64,000 nt of DNA from Streptomyces candidus (GTDB taxonomy: Bacteria > Actinomycetota > Actinomycetes > Streptomycetales > Streptomycetaceae): contig NZ_JACHEM010000001.1 of assembly GCF_014207445.1 (NCBI RefSeq), positions 310,001-374,000 on the forward strand, in the 5' to 3' direction. Below, piece by piece: positions 26,428 through 30,671 of the stretch. Every line of letters begins with the position of its first letter. The first letter of the stretch is position 1. A model generated the notes under the pieces. That model had not been told where the DNA came from and searched no databases. It worked only from the letters and a program-made list of their open reading frames with translations. The position numbers and the translations under genes were made by a program.

Positions 26428-26546
26428 CGCGGGTTGCCAGGCTGCCGACCATCACCGCAGCAGCAACGGGGCCGCGATCCCGCCACCGCCGCAACCGGTG
26501 GCCGAGTCCCCCCGCAGCCGCGTAGAACCCGTAAAGGATGGCGTCC

Positions 26547-27566
26547 GTGACGTTCAAGGCCGAGTACATCTGGATCGACGGCACCGAGCCGACCGCCAAG
26601 CTCCGCTCGAAGACGAAGATCCTGGCGGACGGCGCCGCGCTGCCCGTCTGGGGCTTCGACGGTTCCAGCACCAACCAGGCCCAGGGGCACGCCTCGGACC
26701 TCGTCCTGAACCCGGTGTTCTCCTGCCCGGACCCGATCCGCGGCGGCGACGACATTCTCGTCATGTGCGACGTCCTGAACATCGACATGACGCCGCACTC
26801 CACCAACACGCGCGCGGAACTGCGGCCGCTGGCCGAGCAGTTCGCGGCCCAGGAGCCGATCTTCGGGATCGAGCAGGAGTACACGTTCTTCGAGGGCGAG
26901 CGCCCGCTGGGCTTCCCGGTGGGCGGCTTCCCGGCCGCACAGGGCGGCTACTACTGCGGTGTCGGCGCGGACGAGATCTTCGGCCGCGAGATCGTGGAGA
27001 AGCACCTCGACCACTGTCTGACGGCGGGCCTGGGGATCTCCGGCATCAACGCCGAGGTCATGCCGGGGCAGTGGGAGTTCCAGGTGGGACCGCTGTCGCC
27101 GCTGGAGGTCTCCGACCAGCTGTGGATCGCCCGCTGGCTGCTCTACCGCACCGCCGAGGACTTCGGAGTGTCCGCCACCCTGGACCCGAAGCCCGTCAAG
27201 GGCGACTGGAACGGCGCCGGCGCGCACACCAACTTCTCCACGAAGGCGATGCGCGAGGGCTACGACGCGATCATCACGGCGTGCGAGTCGCTGGGTGAGG
27301 GCTCGAAGCCGATGGACCACGTGAAGAACTACGGCGCCGGCATCGACGACCGCCTCACCGGGCTGCACGAGACCGCCCCCTGGAACGAGTACAGCTACGG
27401 CGTCTCCGACCGCGGCGCCTCGGTCCGCATCCCCTGGCAGGTCGCCCAGGAGAAGAAGGGCTACATCGAGGACCGCCGCCCGAACGCCAACGTCGACCCG
27501 TACGTCGTCACCCGGCTGATCGTGGAGACGTGCTGCACGGCCCTGGAGAAGGCCGCGCAGGTCTGA
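26547..27566 (+). CDS. glnII: Glutamine synthetase type II
   Basis: This is a eukaryote-like octameric glutamine synthetase, about 339 residues, doing the same reaction as GlnA without control by adenylylation. Typical GSII motifs are visible: VWGFDGSSTNQA near residue 38, QEYTFFEG for the metal-binding Glu, INAEVMPGQWEFQVGP, and GDWNGAGAHTNFSTKAMR. The GTG at 26547 is preferred because AAAGGATGG lies 5-6 bases upstream and the protein then begins TFKAEYIWIDGTEP like known GSII proteins. The ATG at 26538 would add three residues. GlnR-like boxes precede it. It is heat-labile in other actinomycetes and is used under nitrogen limitation. Confidence 0.96.
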   Translation: MTFKAEYIWIDGTEPTAKLRSKTKILADGAALPVWGFDGSSTNQAQGHASDLVLNPVFSCPDPIRGGDDILVMCDVLNIDMTPHSTNTRAELRPLAEQFAAQEPIFGIEQEYTFFEGERPLGFPVGGFPAAQGGYYCGVGADEIFGREIVEKHLDHCLTAGLGISGINAEVMPGQWEFQVGPLSPLEVSDQLWIARWLLYRTAEDFGVSATLDPKPVKGDWNGAGAHTNFSTKAMREGYDAIITACESLGEGSKPMDHVKNYGAGIDDRLTGLHETAPWNEYSYGVSDRGASVRIPWQVAQEKKGYIEDRRPNANVDPYVVTRLIVETCCTALEKAAQV

Positions 27567-27616: not shown

Positions 27617-27711
27617 TTTCGCGTGCCCGGCGTGACGTCGGCGGTGTGGCCCGAACCGTGTGTCCGGGGGAGCACTGCCGCCCCCGCCGGGCCCGTGCTT
27701 GAATAGGGCGC

Positions 27712-27834
27712 ATGACCGGCTTTCAGAACTCCAGTGCCACGGGTCGTGGCGACCTGGAGCCGTTCTGGCCCTCCCGTCAGCACCACGACTTCGACCGGGT
27801 CTGTTGTCGCGCCGTGAACGCGCGCACCCTCTAA
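27712..27834 (+). CDS. Putative leader peptide with Cys-Cys (40 aa)
   Basis: A 40-codon frame starts at ATG 27712 and ends with the segment HHDFDRVCCRAVNARTL before TAA. It has no clear ribosome site; a -10-like TTGAATAG lies just upstream, which would fit a leaderless transcript. The Cys-Cys pair followed by Arg-rich residues resembles cysteine-containing leader peptides annotated upstream of regulated actinobacterial genes. A perfect 8-bp-stem hairpin begins one base after the stop codon. The next gene, a winged-helix regulator, starts 115 bases later in the same direction. Translation of the Cys codons could therefore influence the hairpin and downstream expression. That role is an inference. 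Confidence 0.6.
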   Translation: MTGFQNSSATGRGDLEPFWPSRQHHDFDRVCCRAVNARTL

Positions 27835-27835
27835 C

Positions 27836-27863
27836 GCCGTACCCCGGACCTCTCCGGTACGGC
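27836..27863 (+). promoter_or_regulatory. Hairpin directly after the leader peptide
   Basis: GCCGTACC and GGTACGGC form a perfect 8-bp stem with a 12-base loop, starting one base after the leader stop codon. A ribosome stalled on the Cys or Arg codons at the end of the leader would sit beside or partly over it, so it is a candidate attenuator element. Confidence 0.6.
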
Positions 27864-27949
27864 CTTCGGTCCGCGCGACCGGGCAGGAAGCAGCACGCCG
27901 CCGTGTGACTCCCCGCGGCGGTCTCCTCCGCGCGAAAGCAGACTCCGTC

Positions 27950-28606
27950 ATGGCCCACGCCACCGTCACCCGCCCCCTCCCCGCCCCCTCGCCGGCCCGC
28001 CCGCGCCGGACGGCGCCCGAACCGGTGCGCCCCGGGCCGCACCGGCTGCGCGCCGTCGAGCGCGACGAGGTGGTGTCCCCGGCAGCCTCCCCCTCGGGGC
28101 CGCGTCCCGCGTACGACGTGGCCGACTACCTTCCCCCCGGTGCCACCTGGCTGCCCGCCCCGCAGCACGTGCTGCCCGCCCTGCCGGGCCGCCCGCCGAT
28201 GGTCGGCTACCTCGTCCTCGTACCGGCGGACCGGCGGCCGGACACCGCTCCGGACGTCGCGGGGCGCGCCGCCGGACAGCGGGCCGTCGACCCTCCCGCC
28301 GACGAGGAGCGCGCCGACGTGCGGCACGGCGTTGTGCGGATCGACTCCTCGCGGCGGCTCGCCGAGGTGGACGGGCGGGCGCTGGACCTCACGTACCTGG
28401 AGTTCGAGCTGCTGGCGCACCTGGTGGCGCATCCCCACCGCGTGCACACCCGGGACCGGCTGGTGACCACGGTGTGGGGGTACGGACACGTAGGCGACGG
28501 CCGCACCGTGGACGTGCACATCGCCCGGCTGCGCCGCAAACTGGGGGCCGAGCACCGGCACACCATCCAGACGGTGCGCCGGGTGGGTTACAAGTACGCT
28601 CCCTGA
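27950..28606 (+). CDS. OmpR-type winged-helix regulator, possible GlnRII
   Basis: This 218-residue protein ends in a clear OmpR/PhoB winged-helix domain (about residues 122-218: LDLTYLEFELLAHLVAHPHR, then RLVTTVWGYGHVGDGRTVDV and TVRRVGYKYAP). The N-terminal half is Pro/Ala-rich and has no recognisable receiver domain or phospho-acceptor Asp. The position next to glnII, and the OmpR class, fit S. coelicolor GlnRII (from memory SCO2213), an OmpR-type protein reported to bind nitrogen-gene promoters, but identity is not proven here. The ATG at 27950 was chosen over an upstream GTG at 27905. A leader peptide and hairpin precede it, suggesting translational or attenuation control. Confidence 0.78.
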   Translation: MAHATVTRPLPAPSPARPRRTAPEPVRPGPHRLRAVERDEVVSPAASPSGPRPAYDVADYLPPGATWLPAPQHVLPALPGRPPMVGYLVLVPADRRPDTAPDVAGRAAGQRAVDPPADEERADVRHGVVRIDSSRRLAEVDGRALDLTYLEFELLAHLVAHPHRVHTRDRLVTTVWGYGHVGDGRTVDVHIARLRRKLGAEHRHTIQTVRRVGYKYAP

Positions 28607-28764
28607 GTGCTGCGTACGGGGTCCCGCGCGGGCGGTGGTGCCAGGTACACCCCGCCCCGGGTGCGGAACCCCGTGCCCCGGCCGCGTCCCCGGGGGAGAC
28701 TGTGCCTGCGGCCAGGCACGGAAGCCTCGGGGACACGGCCGCGGACGGAGAGGGACCCACCACC

Positions 28765-30042
28765 ATGAATGCCACCCGGATACGCGCCGCGCTGCTGGCG
28801 GGGGTGCGCGCGCTCGGCCTGTCGGTCGCCTCCGTCGCGGTCAGTTGCGTGCTGTTCTCCCTCACTCTGCTCTCGCTGGTCCTCGTCGGGATCGGCGTGG
28901 GCGTCTTCACCACCCCCGTGGTGCTGGGCTGGGTGCGGGCCTGGGCCGACCACCGCAGGCGGCTGGCGGCATCCTGGTCCGACGTGCGGATCGACGTCCC
29001 CTACCGTGCGCTGCCTGCGGACATCCGTTCCGGTGTGACCGGGCAGGTGGAGCGGACCTCGCTGATGCTGAAGGACCCGGCGACCTGGCGGGACCTCCAG
29101 TGGCTGTTCGTGGACCTGTCCGCGGGAGCCGTCACCGCGCTCGTCCCCGGGCTGACGCTCTGGTACTGGCTCTACGGGCTCGTGATCGCGGCCGGCCTGT
29201 GGCGGGTGTTCGCGCACAGTGGCGGTGAGTGGTTCCTCTTCGTCCGGGTGCACAGCCAGTTCACCGGCCTGCTCGCGCTCGCTCTCGGCCTCGGCATCCT
29301 CGCGCTCGGCCTCCGCTACAACACCACCCTTCTGCGGGCCCACTTCCGTCTCGCCAAGTGCTTCCTCGCCCCGACGAAGGAAGCCTCGCTGGCCCTGCGC
29401 GTGGCGAAGCTGACCGAGACCCGGCACGACGCCCTCGACACCTCGGCCGCCGAACTCCGTCGCATCGAACGGGACCTGCACGACGGCGCGCAGGCCCGGC
29501 TGGTCGCCATGGGCATGAACCTGGGCACCATCGAGGCCCTCATCGAGAAGGACCCGGCGAAGGCGAAGAAGCTGATCGGGGTGGCCCGCGCGTCCTCCGC
29601 CGAGGCGCTGACCGAACTGCGCGACCTGGTCCGCGGCATCCACCCGCCGGTGCTCGCCGAGCGCGGACTGGGCGACGCGGTACGGGCGCTGGCGCTGCGG
29701 CTGCCGATCGAGACGGAGGTGACGGTGGACCTGCCGGGGCGCTCCGAGGCGCCGGTGGAGTCGGCGGCGTACTTCGCCGTCAGCGAGGTGCTCACCAACG
29801 CGGTCAAGCACTCGGGCGCGGACCGCATCTGGGTGGACCTGCACCACACGGGCACCGGCCGCGACGGCATGATCCGCGTCTCGGTCACCGACAACGGATG
29901 CGGCGGGGCGAGGATCGGGGCGGGCTCCGGGCTGAGCGGGGTCGAACGCAGGCTCGGTACATTCGACGGTGTCCTGGCCGTCAGCAGTCCCGCGGGCGGT
30001 CCCACCATGGTGACCATGGAGATTCCTTGCGCGTCCTGCTAG
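28765..30042 (+). CDS. Sensor histidine kinase (HisKA_3 type)
   Basis: This 425-residue membrane kinase has an N-terminal sensor domain with four hydrophobic helices (first at about 12-52, later around residues 115-150 and 165-195). The phosphorylation helix is ELRRIERDLHDGAQARLVAM, where the His of RDLHDG is phosphorylated. A HATPase_c domain follows (SEVLTNAVKHSGADRIWVDL, VTDNGCGGA). These features define the NarL/DesK-like class. The ligand is unknown. The ATG at 28765 places the first helix near the N-terminus. The response-regulator gene overlaps its last codons, so the two are translationally coupled and form one two-component system. Confidence 0.92.
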   Translation: MNATRIRAALLAGVRALGLSVASVAVSCVLFSLTLLSLVLVGIGVGVFTTPVVLGWVRAWADHRRRLAASWSDVRIDVPYRALPADIRSGVTGQVERTSLMLKDPATWRDLQWLFVDLSAGAVTALVPGLTLWYWLYGLVIAAGLWRVFAHSGGEWFLFVRVHSQFTGLLALALGLGILALGLRYNTTLLRAHFRLAKCFLAPTKEASLALRVAKLTETRHDALDTSAAELRRIERDLHDGAQARLVAMGMNLGTIEALIEKDPAKAKKLIGVARASSAEALTELRDLVRGIHPPVLAERGLGDAVRALALRLPIETEVTVDLPGRSEAPVESAAYFAVSEVLTNAVKHSGADRIWVDLHHTGTGRDGMIRVSVTDNGCGGARIGAGSGLSGVERRLGTFDGVLAVSSPAGGPTMVTMEIPCASC

Positions 30043-30671
30043 CCGAAGACCTTTTCCTCCTCCGCGACGGCCTGGTGCGGATGCTCGAAGCGTTCGACTT
30101 CGAGGTCCTGGCCGCCGTCGAAACCGGGCCCGAACTCACCCAGGCCTTCGAGGAGTTGGAACCTGATGTCGCCGTCGTCGACGTCCGGCTCCCGCCGTCC
30201 CACACCGACGAGGGACTCCAGTGCGCACTCGCCGCCCGGCGCGCGAGACCCGGCCTGCCCATCCTCGTGCTGTCCCAGCACGTGGAGCAGTTGTACGCGC
30301 GCGAGCTGCTCGCCGACGGCAACGGGGGCATCGGCTACCTCCTCAAGGACCGGGTCTTCGACGCCGAGCAGTTCGTCGACGCGGTACGCCGGGTCGCCGG
30401 CGGGGGCACCGCCATGGACCCGCAGGTCATCTCGCAGCTGCTGTCGCGGCGGGCCCAGGACAAGCCGATCGGGCAGCTCACCCCGCGCGAGAAGGAGGTG
30501 ATGGAGCTGATGGCACAGGGCCGCTCCAACGCGGCCATCGCCGCCCAGCTCTTCGTCACCGAACGCGCGGTGGCCAAGCACACCTCCAACATCTTCGCCA
30601 AGCTGGACCTGCCGGTCTCCGACGACGACAACCGGCGGGTCCTCGCCGTGCTGGCGTACCTGGACCACTAG
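30027..30671 (+). CDS. NarL/LuxR-type response regulator
   Basis: This 214-residue regulator pairs with the kinase upstream. The receiver domain opens with RVLLAEDLFLLRDGLVRML and has the phospho-acceptor Asp in VAVVDVRLPP and the conserved Lys in YLLKDRV. The C-terminal LuxR-type helix-turn-helix is LTPREKEVMELMAQGRSN and LFVTERAVAKHTSNIFAKL. The most likely start is the rare TTG at 30027, because GGAG lies 5 bases upstream and the receiver fold begins at once. No ATG or GTG is suitably placed. It overlaps the kinase gene by 16 bases. Targets are unknown; the neighbouring secreted protease and DUF1996 genes are possible. Confidence 0.9.
   Translation: MRVLLAEDLFLLRDGLVRMLEAFDFEVLAAVETGPELTQAFEELEPDVAVVDVRLPPSHTDEGLQCALAARRARPGLPILVLSQHVEQLYARELLADGNGGIGYLLKDRVFDAEQFVDAVRRVAGGGTAMDPQVISQLLSRRAQDKPIGQLTPREKEVMELMAQGRSNAAIAAQLFVTERAVAKHTSNIFAKLDLPVSDDDNRRVLAVLAYLDH

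Follow-up and report, generated by a model that had tools for sequence, protein, structure and literature searches.

A conserved leader peptide with an invariant cysteine codon ahead of GlnRII in Streptomyces: a probable translation attenuator

Introduction

Leaderless leaders that respond to cysteine have been described in mycobacteria (Canestrari 2020, as cited in PMC13236596 and PMC9094748). Where PMC13236596 turns to the polycysteine short ORFs of these bacteria, they are presented as cysteine-responsive and their mode of action is termed translation attenuation. A leaderless cysteine attenuator had also been foreseen in PMC4633059. As a kind, then, such attenuators are known already from the mycobacterial polycysteine ORFs. 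The ermC translation attenuator works through mutually exclusive RNA pairings: the pausing of a ribosome releases the Shine-Dalgarno sequence (SD) of the next gene.

The leader considered here lies in front of a regulator of the GlnRII type. It had been picked out in an earlier note on a stretch of 64,000 nucleotides from Streptomyces candidus (NCBI RefSeq assembly GCF_014207445.1, contig NZ_JACHEM010000001.1, positions 310,001 to 374,000), which as a whole is called the window below. The elements of the locus are the following.

26538..27566, + strand: glnII, the upstream neighbour (NF041605, 688 bits)
27696..27704, + strand: extended -10-like element TGC-TTGAAT of a putative leaderless promoter, 7 nt before the ATG, conserved in relatives
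27712..27834, + strand: leader peptide ORF of 40 codons with the core DLEPFWPSRQHHDFDRVCC, recognised by pN/pS and cross-genome matches
27802..27807, + strand: tandem Cys codons TGT TGT, the first being the invariant, putatively regulatory codon (TGT bias, opening-energy minimum)
27808..27813, + strand: segment a (CGCGCC), predicted to pair with d beside the SD (consensus fold, pair counts, minimum-energy fold of the window sequence)
27819..27829, + strand: segment b, the end of the leader ORF, predicted to pair with c (consensus fold, pair counts)
27836..27863, + strand: perfect 8-bp hairpin GCCGTACC/GGTACGGC at the tip of the b:c helix, not conserved
27868..27877, + strand: segment c (GGTCCGCGCG), predicted to pair with b (conservation, consensus fold, pair counts)
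27930..27941, + strand: segment d (GCGCG) and the adjoining SD-like AAAGCAG of the regulator; GCGCGAAAG near the start codon is conserved
27950..28606, + strand: GlnRII-type winged-helix regulator without receiver domain (PF00486), the putative controlled gene

The leader peptide and its promoter

The frame at 27712-27834 (+) translates into MTGFQNSSATGRGDLEPFWPSRQHHDFDRVCCRAVNARTL. A profile built from 13 relatives matched it at E<1e-10 in 172 of 199 Streptomyces genomes; 19 of the others gave weak matches only and 8 gave none. The leader is also matched in most other genera of the Streptomycetaceae. Changes relative to the window number 88, 66 and 463 at codon positions 1, 2 and 3, respectively. 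The 56 Streptomyces-type sequences give a pN/pS of 0.038; across all 77 diverse ones it is 0.24. Such a pattern of substitutions marks the 40 codons as a gene that is translated and strongly held by purifying selection. The earlier note had singled the frame out for its Cys-Cys end, and conservation and codon substitution, both proposed there as checks, confirm it as real, far beyond chance. Literature searches yielded no published description of this leader.

Six to seven bases 5' of the ATG, nearly all of 151 relatives carry TGCTTCAAT or a close variant of it (the window reads TGCTTGAAT), with the T at -12 and the A at -9 being conserved in 100% of them. A consensus promoter scan at the leader found no match, because the -10-like element is not of the form TANNNT. 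The gap between this element and the ATG leaves no room for a Shine-Dalgarno sequence. The conserved element so close to the ATG supports, by its position, a leaderless message, which agrees with what the earlier note had suggested from the -10-like sequence of the window.

The tandem cysteines, which the same note had taken for the key feature, have to be seen differently. Only the first of them (Cys1) is invariant; the second (Cys2) is replaced by Arg, Pro or Gln in several lineages. Cys1 is encoded by the rare TGT in 175 of 176 leaders. This holds for all 14 leaders without GlnRII seen downstream (13 of these precede other genes and one lies at a contig end). By comparison, TGT accounts for 12.5% of the 152 Cys codons in the 37 predicted genes of the window, which served as background, and Cys2 is encoded by TGC in 120 of 150 leaders. 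As far as codon choice can tell, the TGT bias marks the decoding of the Cys1 codon as a selected step.

A predicted RNA switch

A consensus fold derived from 32 Streptomyces leaders pairs segment a, just 3' of the Cys codons, with segment d, just 5' of the GlnRII SD, and this a:d helix encloses a second one, b:c. The 20 consensus pairs hold in 95.3% of cells. The b:c helix is paired in 96% of cells and shows compensatory changes at columns 112-217 and 115-214. Five pairs were changed on both sides, versus 1.9 expected in shuffles; the covariation score was reached by none of 500 shuffles, a control that ignores relatedness. The a:d helix has one covarying pair only, and when a and d partners were swapped between genera, pairing within genera was no better than between them. 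In the minimum-energy fold of the window sequence, the a:d pairing of this genome extends across the Cys codons (27800-27813). An Rfam search of the region gave no match among 4227 covariance models (E up to 1).

The perfect 8-bp hairpin that the earlier note had placed one base after the stop codon is present as described. Its arms are GCCGTACC (27836-27843) and GGTACGGC (27856-27863), it begins one base past the leader stop, and 0.084 such 8-bp repeats would be expected by chance in this interval. As a switch, as which it had been proposed, it finds no support: just 1 of 162 relatives has it, the stem is not followed by a T run, and a terminator scan of the leader region found none. The count among relatives rules it out as a conserved element; it appears to be a local feature, peculiar to this genome within the set of 162, that caps the conserved b:c helix.

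The energy needed to open d, SD and ATG was computed with the footprint of a ribosome masked codon by codon. This measure was adopted after the consensus fold had been seen and is not a blind test; it was then run against two shuffled controls. A first measure of accessibility, the mean unpaired probability of six SD bases, had given no clear signal. In 59 Streptomyces-type sequences, opening costs 13.6 kcal/mol in the free RNA and about 12 kcal/mol while the ribosome is still upstream of the Cys codons. The cost drops to 7.7 kcal/mol, in 98-100% of the sequences, when the P site is no more than one codon away from Cys1, and returns to about 10-12 kcal/mol after Cys1. For 18 sequences belonging to other genera or to divergent lineages it is 11.9 kcal/mol in the free RNA, about 7 kcal/mol at Cys1, where nearly all of them show the fall, and about 12.5 kcal/mol thereafter. 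A trough, defined as >2 kcal/mol on both sides of Cys1, is found in 74% of the real sequences versus 9% of recoded-and-shuffled and 15% of spacer-shuffled controls. For the window itself, the cost is lowered from 21.3 to about 8 kcal/mol at Cys1 and, in this simple model, stays low afterwards. Since the start site is open past Cys1 in the model of the window, switching off would require a to re-pair behind the ribosome. In silico, and with controls, a ribosome at the regulatory codon thus frees the next SD, as is typical of a translation attenuator. The trough at Cys1 and the TGT bias also support, in silico, the ribosome-mediated control centred on the Cys codons that the earlier note had envisaged.

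The putatively controlled gene and its surroundings

The regulator is, as the earlier note had suggested, of the winged-helix GlnRII type and follows glnII. It has the OmpR-type winged helix without receiver domain and the place beside glnII by which GlnRII (SCO2213 type) of Streptomyces is described in PMC10704036. Its orthologs in relatives are 68-76% identical. Translation most likely starts at ATG 27950, because the SD-like GCGCGAAAG and this ATG are conserved elements, which disfavours the upstream GTG 27905. Further downstream on the same strand (28763-30671), the ORF list of the window suggests genes for a membrane sensor histidine kinase and for a LuxR-type response regulator.

Among the 37 Streptomyces genomes covered by both the leader and the GlnRII search, 34 have the leader and a close GlnRII ortholog and three have neither. 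One of these three (G022) has a 51%-identical paralog in place of the close ortholog. In other genera the leader is still found upstream of GlnRII, where glnII is elsewhere: glnII is adjacent in 119 of 127 Streptomyces-type loci versus 2 of 29 loci of other types. As the leader stays with GlnRII while glnII moves, the conserved unit consists of leader and GlnRII.

Paralogs of GlnRII are 51-63% identical to it, and those examined share the N-terminal VGYL.LVP. Their clusters comprise luciferase-like monooxygenases, an FMN reductase, TauE, an Rrf2 regulator and an NMT1-type binding protein. At the loci L279/L280, L282 and L283, GlnRII paralogs reside in organosulfur-assimilation clusters together with cysteine leaders of the NF042934 type, an arrangement of which no description was found in the literature searched.

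Relatives of the leader in other families

In a class-wide search, a broader profile with the core L.P.W..R....FD..C detected clear relatives in several actinomycete families. According to Pfam, the genes downstream of these encode cysteine dioxygenase, TauE/SafE sulfite exporter, luciferase-like monooxygenase, family 5 solute-binding protein and beta-carbonic anhydrase, but also GlnRII-like regulators. In some of the leaders the stop follows immediately after the Cys. The family has no match in NCBIfam, Pfam or Rfam and, as far as the literature was searched, is a distinct family of leader peptides that was not previously described. The SD switch did not show up in leaders of TauE, cysteine dioxygenase or solute-binding protein.

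Two groups may be mentioned. In one actinomycete genus with genomes of 4-6 Mb (loci L238-L245), the leader ends with FDEWCRAR or FDEWCCPRP about 80 nt 5' of a TauE/SafE exporter; its TGT is mostly followed by a CGCGCGCGC run. At further loci (L178-L181, L185, L233 and L246), the gene behind a leader of this family is that of cysteine dioxygenase, and in L233 and L246 a rhodanese-like gene comes next. Cysteine dioxygenase leaders are expected to respond to an excess of cysteine, the opposite of what is proposed for GlnRII.

Mechanism and alternatives

The conservation of the peptide, the leaderless promoter pattern, the selected TGT, the RNA switch tuned to the Cys codon and the linkage to GlnRII, all of them observed in silico, point to the region 27712-27950 as a leaderless leader-peptide attenuator of GlnRII translation that is tuned to cysteine, and we consider this model probable. 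In the free leader RNA, a would pair with d beside the GlnRII SD around b:c, and GlnRII would be poorly translated. A ribosome slowed at the rare UGU would cover a, leave b:c intact and free d and the SD, whereupon GlnRII could be made. A shortage of charged tRNA-Cys would bring the pause about. The conserved peptide probably assists in pausing, and the pause probably owes its sensitivity to the FWPSR...FD stretch lying in the exit tunnel. In this way GlnRII would become responsive to the supply of cysteine or sulfur. The earlier note had spoken of control by cysteine supply: that the control is centred on the Cys codon stands, in silico; cysteine starvation as the signal, the rise of GlnRII and its subsequent action are what we infer.

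The main rival is a nascent chain that senses a ligand. While in the exit tunnel, the peptide L.PFWPSRQ.H.FD..C would bind a small molecule (cysteine, a thiol or a sulfane-sulfur species) and arrest at the Cys; the signal would then be a metabolite, not uncharged tRNA-Cys. A peptide conserved so far upstream of the Cys indeed exceeds the need of a pure codon-supply sensor, which counts against the attenuator model as just outlined. The invariant residues in question (L, P, W, R, F and D) suggest that the nascent chain takes part, be it by rendering the ribosome prone to pause or by sensing a ligand. A single Cys is enough in several genera, and some leaders end at it. The W stands 12 residues before the Cys, as does W12 before P24 in TnaC. 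Also, some members of the family precede a cysteine-degrading dioxygenase, an enzyme that one would expect to be induced by excess. The near-absolute TGT, however, suggests that what is timed is the decoding of the Cys codon, and the ligand is hypothetical. Arrest by a ligand strikes us as rather unlikely.

Two other explanations fare worse. Transcription attenuation would take the hairpin 27836-27863 or b:c for a terminator that is released by ribosome stalling, and a stable stem directly after the leader stop codon would fit. Yet an intrinsic terminator, i.e., a stem with a T run, was not found by the terminator scan, the hairpin is practically confined to this genome, and the pairing that is conserved extends to the Shine-Dalgarno region. 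Termination by Rho is the form that this explanation could still take, and we regard the explanation as very improbable. The peptide might also be a small protein acting in trans, e.g., a metal- or thiol-binding one, with GlnRII merely happening to lie downstream. Its strong conservation at the protein level, including His, Asp and Cys, would comply with such a role, but the peptide varies at its ends and past the first Cys, and this, together with the TGT bias, the coupling to an RNA switch and the occurrence of one motif before several different genes, favours a cis-acting leader. We hardly give this idea any credit at all. The cysteine-tuned attenuator thus remains the model that we prefer.

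Sulfur or nitrogen?

The earlier note had seen in the locus a link of the sulfur state to nitrogen regulation. The sulfur part of this proposal gains from the paralogs in organosulfur clusters and from leader kin in front of sulfur genes. The nitrogen part comes out weaker: the adjacency of glnII is nearly limited to Streptomyces, which leaves the sulfur link the better supported one. The context suggests a sulfur role for GlnRII, which so far has been filed under nitrogen. A review reports that GlnRII binds promoters of nitrogen genes, whereas the glnRII mutant is unlike the glnR mutant (PMC10704036), which is a puzzle; sulfur and cysteine are absent from the text of that review. A cysteine-tuned switch, together with the paralogs in organosulfur clusters, suggests a testable new role of GlnRII in linking sulfur to nitrogen control.

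More broadly, one might envisage that leaders with L.P.W..R....FD..C and an invariably used UGU at the Cys form one family of nascent-chain sensors throughout the class, which reads cysteine or a related thiol inside the ribosome exit tunnel and controls sulfur genes of actinomycetes, its target in Streptomyces, GlnRII, being a sulfur-responsive regulator. This is a tentative view, conceivable rather than probable. What is new here is the peptide family, the UGU rule, a transcription regulator as target and the sulfur reading of GlnRII.

Comparison with known systems

With the mycobacterial Ms5788A (NF042933) and Ms4527A (NF042936), the GlnRII leader has in common the leaderless short ORF, the C-terminal Cys codons and the upstream position. 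Like the cysteine-responsive leaderless attenuators, it is a short ORF that is translated and has its putatively regulatory Cys codon close to the start of the next gene, its leaderless nature being deduced from the position of the promoter. It differs in that Ms5788A and Ms4527A precede sulfur genes, whereas the GlnRII leader precedes a transcription regulator, and in having one invariant Cys and the conserved FWPSR...FD stretch. It does not match the models NF042933 and NF042936 and is not a member of either family.

NF042934, a cis_reg_atten model named 'putative leader peptide' (R.H.DL.R....C), likewise describes a short ORF, one that ends near a Cys. Its members are common in actinomycetes and occur in this genome too; motif and Cys spacing differ from those of the GlnRII leader. 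Membership is defined by a 19-position model and >27 bits. A control R.H.DL leader matches it at 30.9 bits, whereas GlnRII, CDO and CA leaders do not match up to E=10. The resemblance of SR.H.D. had made membership a candidate, which is ruled out by profile comparison (hhalign probability 0.3%). The habit of using TGT is the same: the terminal Cys is TGT in 25 of 27 NF042934-type leaders (L249-L278), a rule on which no statement was found in the literature searched. UGU at the regulatory Cys, being common to both, could help to find such switches elsewhere.

By mechanism alone, the GlnRII leader may be likened to the ermC type, with which it shares the logic of pairing; its pause would be at a Cys codon and needs no antibiotic. 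With the arrest peptides TnaC and SpeFL it shares, without any claim of a sequence relation, conserved residues of the nascent chain at a fixed distance from the stall, the tryptophan of TnaC keeping the same distance from its stall as that of the GlnRII leader from its Cys.
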